This document shows positions 38,267-43,279 of a stretch of DNA of 48,279 nucleotides, piece after piece. This stretch comes from Verrucomicrobiota bacterium (lineage in GTDB: Bacteria; Verrucomicrobiota; Verrucomicrobiia; Chthoniobacterales; UBA10450): positions 1 through 48,279 of the forward strand of contig QHPU01000054.1 in NCBI GenBank assembly GCA_003219175.1. Direction: 5' to 3'. The notes under the pieces were generated by a model that was given only the letters and a program-made list of their open reading frames with translations, ran no database searches and was not told where the DNA came from. The translations under genes were made by a program, and so were the position numbers. Every line of letters starts with the position of its first letter. Position 1 is the stretch's first letter.

Positions 38267-38662
38267 CTACCCAGCACACGAATACGGGGACGCAAGCATC
38301 CACACCGTGATCGCGCAGGCAATCAGACAAAAATCTTTCACTAGCGCACCGTAGGGATCGGTCAGCATGGAGGGATTTCCACTCGCAACCAGCATAATCA
38401 GGATCAACATCCACGCGGTTGCGACAAGCACCGCAACTCGTTCAGCAATCCCGATGATCAGCCAGACGCCAACCAACATCTGTGCCACTCCGAGAATTTG
38501 CAGCGTCAGTTCCGGCGTTCGCAACATTAGGTGAGAGGTTCGCACAAGCGCGATTTCGTCCGTGCGCAGAAACAAAATCTTTGGCACGAGTCCTTCGTAA
38601 AACCAGACAAGCCCGAGCGCGATGCGGGAGATGAGTTTGATGGCGTGTAATTTTGTAATCAT
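38267..38662 (-). CDS. DoxX-like small membrane protein
   Basis: A 131-residue protein with four hydrophobic helices, in the DoxX-like family. The start LISRIALGLVWFYEGLVPKIL is the typical first helix, and GVAQMLVGVWLIIGIAERVAV the second or third. DoxX-like proteins are inner-membrane components, some tied to quinone or thiol redox chemistry, but this subgroup has no known reaction. It is the last gene of a seven-gene run; its ATG overlaps the stop of the DUF2071 gene by 4 bases (38659-38662). Confidence 0.82.
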   Translation of the reverse strand: MITKLHAIKLISRIALGLVWFYEGLVPKILFLRTDEIALVRTSHLMLRTPELTLQILGVAQMLVGVWLIIGIAERVAVLVATAWMLILIMLVASGNPSMLTDPYGALVKDFCLIACAITVWMLASPYSCAG

Positions 38663-39453
38663 AAAGTGGATTCATGGATATCGCGGATCCTATGCGGCCA
38701 ACCCATCCAGACATTCACCCCCGGGGAAAAATTCGCTCCGACGAAACCCGCCTCCCGCCACCACGCTTCAGTGGCGCGGATTAAATCGTCGGTCACGATT
38801 TCAACTTTCGCCGCAACTTGCTGCCATGGCTCGTGCCAGATGCGAAAGAAACGGCGGCGGTTGCCGGATTGTGTGAACGCGGTATAACGCTCGAGCAAAA
38901 ATTCATCGAGCGTTTCTGGCGCGCAGCTTGCGAGCTCATTTGTCAACGTCGCGCAATAACGGAATGAGCCGTCATTGGTTTCCACGCGGCCGCAACACTC
39001 ATGCTCGAAATCATTTCGGTATTCGATTTTGCCAAACTGATACGGCAATCCGAAACTCCATGGCCCGAGCCACGCTGCTATCTGGTTCGAAAGCCATTCG
39101 CGCATGAAATAAATTGCCGCTTCGCCCTGGTGTCTGACGTAAGTGCGAACGTTCAGGAAATGATGGGTCGCGATTGGTTTGAACAACAGCGCGCCCAATG
39201 TTCCACCAAGCCACGGCCGCATCCCGCACATCGTGAAAGCCACGAGACTGACAAATGCGCGGCCATGGTAAAGATCCAGTGGGTAGGGAATACAGCGCTG
39301 TAATTCGGCCGGCTCGATTTCGTAATGAATGAATAGAACGTTGTCCCAGTTTGCGCAGAAGAGTGGCTCGCCACGCCGGGACAACAAGCGTTCCTTGGCG
39401 GCTCCCGGGTCGTTGAAAATAGGCGCTTCCTGGAGCGGCGGCGCTGTGGTCAT
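38659..39453 (-). CDS. DUF2071 (YqjF-like) protein
   Basis: A 264-residue protein from the ATG at 39453, which overlaps the previous gene's stop as ATGA; an in-frame extension to 39579 would lie wholly inside that gene and is rejected. It has the DUF2071/YqjF pattern: DNVLFIHYEIEPAELQRCIP, YHGRAFVSLVAFTMCGMRPW, LNVRTYVRHQGEAAIYFMREW and LERYTAFTQSG. This beta-rich fold is related to acetoacetate decarboxylase-like proteins; no reaction is known. No signal peptide. Member of the ATGA-linked operon 38267-43171. Confidence 0.85.
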   Translation of the reverse strand: MTTAPPLQEAPIFNDPGAAKERLLSRRGEPLFCANWDNVLFIHYEIEPAELQRCIPYPLDLYHGRAFVSLVAFTMCGMRPWLGGTLGALLFKPIATHHFLNVRTYVRHQGEAAIYFMREWLSNQIAAWLGPWSFGLPYQFGKIEYRNDFEHECCGRVETNDGSFRYCATLTNELASCAPETLDEFLLERYTAFTQSGNRRRFFRIWHEPWQQVAAKVEIVTDDLIRATEAWWREAGFVGANFSPGVNVWMGWPHRIRDIHESTL

Positions 39454-39884
39454 GCATTTCTCCAAAAGGCGGCTGCGAGATAGACGACTCCCATCGCGCC
39501 ATAGCCAAGAAACAGTGTCCAGTGAATCAGAGTTCGCGCTGCGTTTCCGCGCCAATGGCTCGAACTGTAATGCAGCCATTGCATTACCGAGCGAACGATC
39601 CAGAACATTCCGATCGCTGTTGCCAGCCAGATCGCCAGCGGATTGGCGGCGCTGGCAATGTCATGAACGAATCGCCAGGTGAGCAACGCAAAGATCGACA
39701 GGGTGATAGAAATGAAAATGACGTGGATGTAAAAAACTTCTCGAATGAGGAGCGGCGCCCGAGCGAGCTCAGCCTTCCATTTCATGATGCGGATGAGAAA
39801 CAGATTCAAAATCGCAACCGCAAACTGCGCAATTGCGGCTGTGCGTAGTGCGAGATCGAGGGCCGAATTGTTCAGGGTATTCAT
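39450..39884 (-). CDS. Small four-helix membrane protein, operon paralogue B
   Basis: A 144-residue protein with four predicted helices. It resembles the product of 40795-41190 in the same operon: the pairs FYIHVIFISITLSIFALLTW / FWVYGVFIVMVIIAFATLTF, AIGMFWIVRSVMQW / TIFWGARLFVQG, and WTLFLGYGAMGVVYLAAAF / YQIGYHALTVLFAFLVLVY line up. The two probably arose by duplication and may form a heteromer. I do not recognise a named family. Linked by ATGA overlaps to the epimerase gene before and the DUF2071 gene after. Confidence 0.8.
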   Translation of the reverse strand: MNTLNNSALDLALRTAAIAQFAVAILNLFLIRIMKWKAELARAPLLIREVFYIHVIFISITLSIFALLTWRFVHDIASAANPLAIWLATAIGMFWIVRSVMQWLHYSSSHWRGNAARTLIHWTLFLGYGAMGVVYLAAAFWRNA

Positions 39885-40798
39885 TGGTTTGGATAAATAT
39901 TCGCGAGGGCTTCGCGAAGGTTGGGAAATTCGAACTCGAAATTCTTTTCCAGGAATCGTTTCGGAACACAGCGCTGGCTAACGAGAGCTAGACTTGCTTC
40001 TGTCCCCATTAGCCAGGAGCCAGTGCGGGCGGCAAATTCCGGGACGGGCGGGCTCCAGGGCCGATGTAATGCGTGACGTAATTCATGCATCAATTCCGCA
40101 TTCGTCACCGGATTCGGCGCGGTCGCGTTAAAAACACCCGTGAGTTGTTCCTGGTCGATCGCCTGCAAAATCATGCGCGATAGGTCGGCAATATGAATCC
40201 AACTTATGTATTGGCGGCCGTTACCAATTTGCCCGCCGAGAAACCACCGGGTCAGTCTGCTCAGAACATGGAGGAAACCGCCGGTCCGACCAAGGACAAC
40301 GCCCAGTCGCAATAAGACTTTGCGCGTATTCGGCGAATCAACAGAATCGAATGCCGCTTCCCATTTCTTACAGACCTCGCTGACGAAATCATCGCCGGGT
40401 GCGGTAGTCTCATCACAAATGCGTTCGCCTTTGTCGCCGTAGATTCCGACGCCGGCAAGTTGCACGAACACTTTCGGGGGTTGGACACATCGGGGGATCG
40501 CCTCGCCGAGGATGCGGACGGAATCTACGCGCGAATCGACGATCTCGCGCCGGTGTTCAGGCGTGTGCCGGGTGTTGATGCTACGTCCGGTTAAATTCAC
40601 TAGCCCGCGTGCGCCATTCACAAATTGCGTCCACTCGCCGAGCGTTTTGCCGTCCCAATGCGCTTCGCGAATGCTGCCGTGATGATCCGATTTATCGCGT
40701 GTGAGGACGACAACCTCGTAGTTTTTCGAAACCAGAAATGGCGAGAGTGATTGTCCGATAAAGCCGCTGCCGCCGGCCAGGATGATTCGTGGTTTCAT
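39881..40798 (-). CDS. TIGR01777-family NAD(P)-dependent epimerase-like protein (SDR)
   Basis: A 305-residue extended short-chain dehydrogenase. The nucleotide-binding GGSGFIG is at residues 9-15, and the family signature follows: HWDGKTLGEWTQFVNGARGLVNLTGRSI, where the NLTG segment marks TIGR01777. VQLAGVGIYGDKGERICDE carries the catalytic Tyr. The C-terminal DUF1731 part has PVPEFAARTGSWLMGTEASL and ends near NLREAL. Relatives were once called cell-division inhibitors because of the SulA label, without support. The substrate is unknown. Middle gene of the seven-gene operon, flanked by the two small membrane paralogues. Confidence 0.88.
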   Translation of the reverse strand: MKPRIILAGGSGFIGQSLSPFLVSKNYEVVVLTRDKSDHHGSIREAHWDGKTLGEWTQFVNGARGLVNLTGRSINTRHTPEHRREIVDSRVDSVRILGEAIPRCVQPPKVFVQLAGVGIYGDKGERICDETTAPGDDFVSEVCKKWEAAFDSVDSPNTRKVLLRLGVVLGRTGGFLHVLSRLTRWFLGGQIGNGRQYISWIHIADLSRMILQAIDQEQLTGVFNATAPNPVTNAELMHELRHALHRPWSPPVPEFAARTGSWLMGTEASLALVSQRCVPKRFLEKNFEFEFPNLREALANIYPNQ

Positions 40799-41190
40799 AA
40801 CGCTGCCTTTCCGTAGACGAGGACTAAAAACGCGAAGAGAACAGTCAGTGCATGATAACCGATCTGGTAAATCCAGTTCGTTAGAAACGGTCGTGGATCA
40901 AAGATGGCGCCTTGCACGAACAATCGTGCGCCCCAGAAAATCGTGATAAAAGCACAAAGGGAACGCGCGACGGGTTCGCGCGCGGCCATCGCATCGGCGT
41001 GGCGGAAGGTGAGAGTGGCGAACGCGATGATCACCATGACAATGAACACGCCGTAAACCCAGAAGAGCTTCCGCAGGAATGGATGGAGGACCGCCAGATT
41101 TTTTCGCCAATCCAAAACCCGCGGAGTCAACGCGCTCGCGATCAGGATTAATAATTGCACTGCAGCAGCGAGTTGAAGAAGTAGTTTCAT
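40795..41190 (-). CDS. Small four-helix membrane protein, operon paralogue A
   Basis: A 131-residue membrane protein with four hydrophobic segments, starting MKLLLQLAAAVQLLILIASA. It is similar in length, helix spacing and several aligned positions to the product of 39450-39884 (see there). No charged catalytic motif stands out. It joins the DCC-MBOAT gene upstream and the epimerase gene downstream by ATGA overlaps, so its amount is probably set by theirs. Function unknown; a membrane partner for the operon's enzymes is an inference. Confidence 0.8.
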   Translation of the reverse strand: MKLLLQLAAAVQLLILIASALTPRVLDWRKNLAVLHPFLRKLFWVYGVFIVMVIIAFATLTFRHADAMAAREPVARSLCAFITIFWGARLFVQGAIFDPRPFLTNWIYQIGYHALTVLFAFLVLVYGKAAL

Positions 41191-42677
41191 AAGGCCCCAA
41201 TCTCTTTTATGAAGGGCAGAATGACGTTGTGAACGAACGGCGGATGGAAAAGCCAGAATGCGGGGACGCCGGTGATTGAGATAGTGAAGATGCGGCTTCG
41301 AATCTGCGGAAAGGCTCGCTCCAACAAAATTCCGACGCCTTGCAATAAGAAATAGGCAGTCGGCAGTCCGTAACCAGCTCCGGCTGGCAATGAGATTACC
41401 AGCTCATGGATTAAACCCGAGACAAGAAACGCCGTGAGGGTTGCGATCCCTGCTCCAAAATGGAGGGTCGAGCTCCCGCGAGACCTGCGTGCGGTGTCGC
41501 ACGAACTCCGTCCCCCAAGGCGCCGCGTAATCGGCCGAGAAACAAATTCAAACGCGAGCCGGTTAAATGCCGAATTCCAGCGGCGTCCCCAAAATTCGCT
41601 GACTGTCTTCGAACGCAACGGCGCATTCATGATCGGTTCCGTATCTATTCCTGCTTTGCGCCATCCAATCGCGAGAAGCTGAAACAGCCCGAAATGCAAG
41701 ATGAGAATCATACCGATCATTCCAATCCAGCCGGCGATTAGCGGCTGTTGCGCGAAGGGCGCAGCGCCAAACAAAAGAACTCCTCCGAGGAAAGCCTTCG
41801 CCATGGGAACTACGAGCTTCCGTTTATCTCTCGACTTTTCCCAATCGAAGACTTGACGGCTTAAAGCCGTCGAGTTTTGGCGCGGGCGAGTCAGGAATTT
41901 TTCCGCGTCCATGCCCGGCCAGGCGAAGAAATAGCCGAGTGTGGGAGCCAACTTGAGATGTGAGTTTGGTTTTTGGGCGCGCCAGGCAGTAAGCCATTTG
42001 CAGCCAAAGAAAATTGCCCCGGCCATCAGCCACATGAACTGCCAAGGTGCGAGACGATCTCGTAAAGGAAGAACCGAGATCGGTAACGCGATTAGCGCGA
42101 TCCATGCAGGGAATATTTCAAGGAACGGCTCTCTCCAGCCTGCCATTTCGTTAATTCGGCGGATTGGACGCCGCCGCTTCTGGAGATCGCATGCAATATG
42201 ATGGCAGCCTCGATGAGCGGCGACCCAGCGATAACCTCGATTGAGAACCGGGTGTATTCCGGGAAATTGCGCGAGTAGGACAAAGGGCCAGGCCCACCAA
42301 ATCTGTCGCGCCAGAAAGATTACCGCATCCGCGCCGGCGATGTCCTGGTTCTCATTCGTCAAAACATGCATTTCTTCGAGTGGGACACCGGGCTCGAGGC
42401 CGAGCTGCTGCATCACCCATTTTGTTTGCAGGGGGAGAAAGAGAAATCCGCGAGAGCGAAATATTCGATCGAACCGTCTGGCTGAAGCGGTGCAGGACGG
42501 GCAATCGCCATCATAAAGAATCCAGCCGCGAAACGGAGACGCGCTTTCACGATGCTTTGGTCGCGGAAGGGCAGGAGGCGGGCATCTCGGTGGCCTTCTG
42601 GCGTGGCGCCTTGGCGGGGATTCGCTAATATCAGTCTTTTCTGTCAACTCAGAATTCATTGCCAAATTTTTTGTCAT
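41187..42677 (-). CDS. DCC thiol-redox domain fused to an MBOAT-type acyltransferase
   Basis: A 496-residue fusion. A Pro/Arg-rich N-terminus (1-50; MNSELTEKTD at residue 7 is a possible start) precedes a DCC/DUF393 domain (about 50-165) with the redox motif YDGDCPSCTASARRFDRIF. From about 185 the protein is membrane-embedded. Near the end it shows wax synthase/MBOAT_2 hallmarks: VSEFWGRRWNSAFNRLA and FLVSGLIHELVISLPAGAGY, whose His is the MBOAT active-site histidine. The likely reaction is acyl transfer to an alcohol or lipid in the inner membrane, with the DCC part giving redox control; substrates are unknown. About 20 residues near 390-412 (GRSSCDTARRSRGSS) are coded by a palindromic repeat inserted in frame at 41461-41515. 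The start overlaps the regulator stop by ATGA. Confidence 0.85.
   Translation of the reverse strand: MTKNLAMNSELTEKTDISESPPRRHARRPPRCPPPALPRPKHRESASPFRGWILYDGDCPSCTASARRFDRIFRSRGFLFLPLQTKWVMQQLGLEPGVPLEEMHVLTNENQDIAGADAVIFLARQIWWAWPFVLLAQFPGIHPVLNRGYRWVAAHRGCHHIACDLQKRRRPIRRINEMAGWREPFLEIFPAWIALIALPISVLPLRDRLAPWQFMWLMAGAIFFGCKWLTAWRAQKPNSHLKLAPTLGYFFAWPGMDAEKFLTRPRQNSTALSRQVFDWEKSRDKRKLVVPMAKAFLGGVLLFGAAPFAQQPLIAGWIGMIGMILILHFGLFQLLAIGWRKAGIDTEPIMNAPLRSKTVSEFWGRRWNSAFNRLAFEFVSRPITRRLGGRSSCDTARRSRGSSTLHFGAGIATLTAFLVSGLIHELVISLPAGAGYGLPTAYFLLQGVGILLERAFPQIRSRIFTISITGVPAFWLFHPPFVHNVILPFIKEIGAL
41461..41515. repeat. Palindromic element inserted in frame in the DCC-MBOAT gene
   Basis: A 55-base GC-rich element beginning TGGAGGGTCGAGCTCCCGCG and containing a perfect hairpin GTGCG-GTGT-CGCAC (41489-41502). 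A similar start (TTGGAGGGCGGAGCTC) is seen in the intergenic region near 33239. It adds a low-complexity peptide between the MBOAT motifs EFWGRRW and SGLIHEL. Confidence 0.6.
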
Positions 42678-43171
42678 AGTTTTGTCAATCCCAGGAGCCG
42701 CAAGGTTTTATCCCCCGTCTTCGCCAGTTTGAACAACGCCGTCGTCGGCAGTCTCTCCAATTGCAGGTAGGCGGTTTCGGCCAGCTCGAAGAATTGCAAT
42801 AGATCGGTCAGCCGTTCCCGGGTGTAACGGTCGGCTAACTTTGGTTTGTCCGCCGCCGCGATGCATTCGTGTAGGACCTGCAGGGTGGGATCGATCTCCC
42901 TTTTCTTTCGTTCCCTGGTAATGACGCGAAACATCGCGAAGACGTCTTTCATCGACTCGAAATGGTCACGCCGGTCGCCCAGGACATGGACGACGCGAAC
43001 GATGCCCCAGTTTTGCAGTTCGTGGAGACTGTTGCTGACGTTGGAGCGGGCGATGCCAAGGGTGACGGCAATTTGCTCGGCTGGCAGCGGACGGGGGGAA
43101 AGGAAAAGAAGAGCGTGGATTTGGGCGACGGTGCGATTGACACCCCAGCGAAGATTGACGGCTGTGTCAAC
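42674..43171 (-). CDS. GbsR/MarR-family transcriptional regulator without a normal start codon
   Basis: On the minus strand the frame is open from a TGA near 43280 to the stop at 42674. Family-like sequence begins near VDTAVNLRWGVNRTVAQIHA (43171) with a winged helix: LPAEQIAVTLGIARSNVSNS, then LQNWGIVRVVHVLGDRRDHF. The rest is helical, down to GDKTLRLLGLTKL. It should bind DNA as a dimer and control the genes after it. The only in-frame ATG is at 42952, after the DNA-binding domain; no ATG, GTG or TTG occurs between the upstream stop and that point. So either translation uses a rare start (for example ATT) or the start was lost. It overlaps the DCC-MBOAT gene by ATGA. The upper coordinate given is where similarity begins, not a start codon. 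Confidence 0.75.
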   Translation of the reverse strand, partial: VDTAVNLRWGVNRTVAQIHALLFLSPRPLPAEQIAVTLGIARSNVSNSLHELQNWGIVRVVHVLGDRRDHFESMKDVFAMFRVITRERKKREIDPTLQVLHECIAAADKPKLADRYTRERLTDLLQFFELAETAYLQLERLPTTALFKLAKTGDKTLRLLGLTKL

Positions 43172-43279
43172 AGAAAAAGAGTCGTTTCTTTGTAGCCAAG
43201 AATGAGCCTCAGATGATCGCGAGACGCGTGCGCCGTCCGGCGTCCTCTGTGATCGAACGCTGGGAATTGAAACAAAATC

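Follow-up and report, generated by a model that had tools for sequence, protein, structure and literature searches.

A GbsR/MarR-like regulator, a second predicted operator and an upstream T-run in a conserved bacterial gene cluster with a probable role in membrane-lipid modification

Introduction

GbsR of Bacillus subtilis has been argued to work by roadblock, at an operator in which 4 bp separate the half-sites (PMC7396694), and four classes of gene neighbourhood have been named for its family: transporters, cydAB, betaine synthesis and Opu uptake (PMC6207618). The sequence just upstream of a roadblock has been named as a factor that may matter and was not yet tested (PMC4132739). Yeast RNA polymerase II, once paused, can be released by coding-strand T-runs with no hairpin involved (PMC7615648). 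Among enzyme families that concern us here, DUF2071 has been described as lacking the Schiff-base lysine of the decarboxylase (PMC4520260).

Here we analyse a stretch of 48,279 nt from a Verrucomicrobiota bacterium (contig QHPU01000054.1; hereafter, the window), which contains a regulator of the GbsR/MarR type followed by six genes on the same strand. In the literature that we searched, we found no description of this gene set as such. Roadblock repression is already known, and a natural element that combines a T-run with an operator at a fixed spacing makes the effect of upstream sequence on termination directly testable.

Results

A conserved cluster of seven genes

The genes and the evidence used to assign them are as follows.

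42674..43171, minus strand: gene 1, GbsR/MarR-like regulator, 5'-truncated (Pfam MarR_2; comparison with intact homologues and their upstream DNA; dN/dS)
41187..42659, minus strand: gene 2, fusion of a DCC thiol-disulfide oxidoreductase domain to a wax-synthase/DGAT1-like MBOAT (Pfam, start comparison, DGAT1 profile match, motifs)
40795..41190, minus strand: gene 3, smA, four long predicted helices (AlphaFold2, pLDDT 93)
39881..40798, minus strand: gene 4, NAD(P)-dependent SDR of the TIGR01777 family (curated-model score; SDR39U1 and SulA structures)
39450..39884, minus strand: gene 5, smB, a paralogue of smA (smA/smB cross-hits)
38659..39453, minus strand: gene 6, DUF2071 with an acetoacetate-decarboxylase-like fold (Pfam; AlphaFold2 model against acetoacetate decarboxylase (ADC) structures)
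38267..38662, minus strand: gene 7, DoxX_3 membrane protein (Pfam)

The family labels of a preliminary description, made from the window's sequence, hold in profile searches with Pfam and other models: MarR_2 in gene 1, DCC1-like and MBOAT_2 in gene 2, Epimerase/DUF1731 (equivalent to TIGR01777) in gene 4, DUF2071 in gene 6 and DoxX_3 in gene 7. Gene 4 scores 296 bits against the TIGR01777 model, above its cut-off of 207. Pfam gave no hit on smA or smB, which find each other at 24-35% identity in cross-hits within the window and at other loci. The regulator is of the MarR winged-helix type (MarR_2, 39.3 bits against a cut-off of 27), and its 40.4 bits against the CudC model (NF047500), under the cut-off of 218, mark it as a relative of CudC and not as CudC.

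The ordered set also recurs, fully or partly, in the Verrucomicrobiota, Planctomycetota and Acidobacteriota, the phyla in which the same description had proposed to look. In searches with tblastn and iterated profiles, many Verrucomicrobiota have the same gene order, and partial sets occur in one Phycisphaeraceae genome and in Acidobacteriota; an sm homologue is present in 17 of 289 sampled genomes of the phylum. Clustering of all neighbouring ORFs was dominated by antisense frames and was not used. As judged from these comparisons, the cluster is real and widely conserved in bacteria. At one locus (L110, 8909-10285, minus strand) the MBOAT and the four-helix sm protein form a single frame of 459 aa, which argues that MBOAT and sm are partners.

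The window's regulator has lost its 5' end

The frame of gene 1 opens with GTT at 43171, and no in-frame ATG, GTG or TTG occurs from the upstream stop (~43280) down to an ATG at 42952 that falls beyond the HTH. Intact relatives of the same genus have ~22 additional N-terminal residues and, upstream, a TTGAC promoter box and the palindrome TTTCTGTTTAGACAGAAA; the homology of the window's protein to them begins only at RWGVNRT. By this comparison, the start codon, the first ~22 codons and the promoter operator (O1, below) of the window's regulator have been lost, with the second operator (O2) and the enzyme genes kept. Comparison with relatives gives the remaining frame a dN/dS of about 0.06-0.09, a sign of purifying selection, so the 5' loss, if real, is recent. 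Since the DNA further upstream aligns in parts with three related loci (L041, L044 and L047), a chimera in the contig is not what one would think of first; the truncation could be an error of the draft assembly.

Predicted operators flank the regulator gene

A palindrome of ~20 bp with the core TTTC-N10-GAAA is found at the regulator promoter (O1) and again just past the regulator stop (O2). The operator predicted from its conservation is the inverted repeat TTTCTGT-N4-ACAGAAA, with half-sites 4 bp apart. The corresponding features of the window are:

42637..42656, minus strand: O2, AATTCTGAGTTGACAGAAAA, which follows closely on the regulator stop and extends into the first codons of gene 2 (PWM score 19.2)
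43158..43177, minus strand: possible remnant of O1, TTTTCTGTTGACACAGCCGT, with the left half and ACAG kept (PWM score 7.1)
42664..42666, minus strand: short T-run, AAAAAATTT (T3), 7 nt before O2, a degenerate form of the T3-T8 runs with 8-nt spacing seen in relatives

O1 lies upstream of the regulator at a PWM score of at least 15 in 23 of 27 loci; Verrucomicrobiota, Phycisphaeraceae and Terriglobia are all represented. Rarity is a mark of strict sites of the O1 type: of 58 related genomes searched, each that matched had a single one, and those with strong scores are at the regulator. The matrix used to scan for O2 was built from O1-type sites of other genomes only, scoring 19.5-31.6, and had no O2 in its training set; it finds O2 at a score of at least 15 in 16 of the 27 loci, where about 0.33 such sites are expected per 857 kb of shuffled sequence. 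O2 is mostly 18-27 nt past the regulator stop, and its position 3' of the regulator gene places it downstream of the regulator promoter. Several regulator loci have no O2 (L043, L067, L107 and L139). Additional operator candidates inside coding regions (e.g. L130, L131, L133, L140 and L150) were set aside as chance matches.

We also note that beyond O2, at +20 to +35 from the start of the operator, GAAA-like half-sites repeat in steps of ~9 bp (+15, +24, +33), a spacing that suggests binding of more than one regulator dimer.

A T-run precedes O2 at a preferred distance

In 16 of 24 O2 loci, counted with one representative for the window's genus and the window itself left out, the longest T-run ends exactly 8 nt upstream of O2; random placement of the T-run end gave a mean of 0.98 loci and never more than 5 over 2000 trials, the loci not being phylogenetically independent. 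The spacing had been noticed by eye before it was counted, and some of the loci in the count are those on which it was noticed; further loci, retrieved later through their similar regulators (L190, L204, L207 and L210), have the same arrangement. Across the 24 loci, the fraction of T is 0.75-0.96 at positions -15 to -9 and drops to 0.08 and 0.04 at -8 and -7. About a third of the O2 loci depart from the exact 8-nt spacing (e.g. L063 with 11 nt, L099 with 7, L205, L209 and L112), and the sequence of the spacer differs between lineages. The four regulator loci named above as having no O2 do not show the T-run arrangement. A scan of 388 genomes with T5-N9-TTTC-N10-GAAA was unspecific, with matches in 193 genomes and many control hits, and in genomes G079 and G242 the sole match is the O2 locus.

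What might such an element do? A conventional intrinsic terminator for the regulator gene, with O2 nearby by chance, would account for T on the coding strand (weakly in the window, with its T3), and at some loci there are stable upstream folds (L102, z -2.7) or, in L063, a GC-rich hairpin ahead of T6. At most loci, however, no hairpin consistently precedes the T-run beyond what shuffled sequence gives (most z values fall from -2 to +1.5), the precise spacing from O2 would lack an explanation, and there is no other evident promoter for the downstream genes, so that we consider this explanation quite improbable. Only slightly better placed, and still improbable, is a T-run that acts as an A-tract, bending the DNA in aid of repressor binding and having no role in elongation: an effect on DNA shape would also fit a fixed operator spacing, yet the O1 sites of the same regulators lack the T-run, and the T orientation on the coding strand is invariable.

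Somewhat less unlikely, though still doubtful, is an internal promoter of the enzyme genes, in which the TTGA that ends several T-runs would be a -35 box and the repressor would sit between -35 and -10. Three loci (L101, L046 and L204) even have TTGACA. TTGA is missing in many lineages, though; 17 bp past the T-run lies half of the operator (C..GAAA) and not a -10-like hexamer; and, for the genus of the window, such a transcript would begin downstream of the gene 2 start codon.

In intact relatives, we tentatively read the operator and a T-run at RNA polymerase stalling distance as a repressor-dependent, hairpin-less and switchable terminator between the regulator and its targets, because GbsR is argued to act by roadblock, T-runs can bring about release of yeast RNA polymerase II with no hairpin, and sequence upstream of a roadblock has been named as a factor. 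If so, the terminator would have been kept in many lineages while the sequences of the operator and the 8-nt spacer drifted.

The predicted operator marks unlinked genes of the same families

The same predicted operator is found ahead of genes away from the cluster: DUF2071 together with a methyltransferase in G342 (L173/L181), DUF2071 in G242 (L183), orthologous methyltransferases in G079 (L164) and G242 (L184), and homologous small membrane proteins in G079 (L163) and G342 (L182). Some of these families return within clusters, since L110 encodes a relative of the G079/G342 small membrane protein in the interval from regulator to MBOAT, and the L060 cluster contains relatives of the operator-linked DUF2071 and methyltransferase. 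By motif occurrence, and whatever the gene order, the shared operator connects these unlinked genes with the operon. DUF2071, TIGR01777, DCC, MBOAT and the small membrane proteins, all unstudied families, are thereby joined in one predicted regulon, which can guide functional work.

Separately, two genomes of family f42 (L198 and L199) encode homologues of the regulator, and about 170 nt ahead of these a strong operator is present; the other families of the operon were not found in the ~3.5 kb around them.

Junctions between the genes

The preliminary description held that every junction is coupled by ATGA and that this implies a fixed stoichiometry. All six minus-strand tetranucleotides are present (42674, 41187, 40795, 39881, 39450 and 38659), and five are plausible stop/start overlaps. 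The first, at 42674, is the stop context of the regulator and not the start of gene 2: in four relatives (L039, L040, L041 and L044) gene 2 starts at an ATG 15-16 nt past the regulator stop, which corresponds to 42659 in the window, and we moved the start there from 42677. In L039 the earlier ATG opens an out-of-frame reading of 9 codons that ends in TGA; because the upstream ATG is in frame in the window only through a small difference in spacer length, five and not six candidate overlaps remain. Among close co-directional pairs, a 4-nt overlap could be formed by 2 of 12 in the rest of the window, 11 of 31 in close relatives and 35 of 167 overall (a range of 17-35%), so that a run of five is notable and not exceptional.

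Most loci that have both MBOAT and sm join them through ATGA, or GTGA in L040, acidobacterial loci included, and the sm/epimerase junction is ATGA in most loci that have that pair. The epimerase/smB, smB/DUF2071 and DUF2071/DoxX junctions vary. In five close relatives (L039, L040, L041, L044 and L045) a larger dispersed palindromic repeat, TCATCCTGAGCGAAG...GGGATGACG, is present where epimerase and smB would overlap by ATGA, with the start of smB about 115-150 nt downstream; the window and L069 keep the overlap.

Strict co-translation of seven genes at a fixed stoichiometry would draw on the five plausible overlaps of the window and on the conservation of the MBOAT/sm overlap and, often, of the sm/epimerase overlap. 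We regard it as highly improbable, because the first junction holds the predicted operator, several others differ between loci, and in some genomes genes of the same families have been relocated to separate transcription units behind that operator.

Enzyme families point to lipid chemistry

The MBOAT profile matches solved DGAT1, with the FWG.RWN and SG.IHE motifs kept, and in our alignment (A3) the catalytic histidine and the FW..WN motif are invariant (H254, F192, W193, W197 and N198). DUF2071 gave no useful match to the PDB by sequence, whether single or profile; in a fold comparison of its AlphaFold2 model, ADC structures were matched (best E 9e-13, TM about 0.6), and no lysine is invariant or nearly so in the DUF2071 alignment (A2). 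The smA model has no fold match in the PDB at E<=0.001. One related cluster (L043) includes a fatty-acid desaturase. Taken together, the MBOAT/DGAT1 match, the ADC fold of DUF2071, the sm proteins, the methyltransferase and the L043 desaturase make modification of membrane lipids the most likely, and probable, function of the cluster, in keeping with the lipid or envelope chemistry at which the preliminary description had hinted from the families. From the families alone, we infer a role in lipid O-acylation.

Two stretches of gene 2 (41450-41526 and 42540-42630, minus strand) resemble inserted sequence of low conservation, and the former is missing from distant MBOAT homologues. The MBOAT-coding part also contains a repeat:

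41854..41872, minus strand: dispersed palindrome, in frame inside the MBOAT-coding part of gene 2

Palindromes close to AAACTTGACGGCTTTAAGCCGTCAAGTTT occur in about 11 copies in the genome (loci L115, L117-L120 and L122-L126), also within long frames elsewhere and in different reading frames (e.g. L115, L119 and L126), reminiscent of Rickettsia palindromic elements.

Discussion

We favour, with some reserve, a model in which a lipid-modification operon and its regulon are controlled by a dedicated GbsR/MarR-like repressor. Where it is intact, as in relatives, this repressor would bind O1 at its own promoter, giving autoregulation, and also O2 just behind its own gene, which transcripts from the regulator promoter would have to pass to get to the enzyme genes. 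Bound at O2, it would stall RNA polymerase, and in most lineages the T-run 8 nt before O2 would mean that the stalled complex holds U-rich RNA, which would help polymerase to come off. Some inducer would free O2 so that the enzymes are made, and the same operator at the promoters of unlinked DUF2071, methyltransferase and small membrane protein genes would bring these into the regulon. The substrate of the enzymes would probably be a lipid alcohol, which undergoes reduction, methylation and O-acylation, with contributions from the TIGR01777 SDR, DUF2071 as a binding protein or a non-Schiff-base enzyme, the DCC redox domain, and MBOAT with the four-helix sm protein.

The enzymes have known relatives from which they differ. 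Gene 2 shares FWG.RWN, SG.IHE and the DGAT1 profile match with the plant-type wax synthase/DGAT1 branch of MBOAT (PF13813); unlike in that branch, the MBOAT here carries a fused DCC domain, a feature of the genus of the window and of some relatives, and is translationally linked or fused to a four-helix protein that has no known fold match. DUF2071 resembles acetoacetate decarboxylase in fold but not in its Schiff-base lysine, which is not conserved (PMC4520260).

As in roadblock repression by LacI, CcpA, CodY and the Kpn2I C protein, a DNA-bound protein past the promoter would limit readthrough; a T-run at a constant distance before the block sets the present loci apart, and is not described in the consulted parts of those accounts (PMC10310618, PMC4132739). 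The closest likeness is to GbsR, OpcR and OpuAR of Bacillus, members of the MarR superfamily: both they and the present regulators are winged-helix proteins of the MarR type, and an operator in the path of the elongating polymerase, as in Bacillus, is predicted here in O2 (PMC7396694, PMC6207618); the predicted operator is, as for GbsR, an inverted repeat with half-sites 4 bp apart. The lipid-type cluster matches none of the four neighbourhood classes of PMC6207618. In contrast to GbsR, OpcR and OpuAR, the genes predicted to be under control here are of lipid type and not osmoprotectant genes, and two predicted operators flank the regulator gene, with a T-run at a fixed distance.
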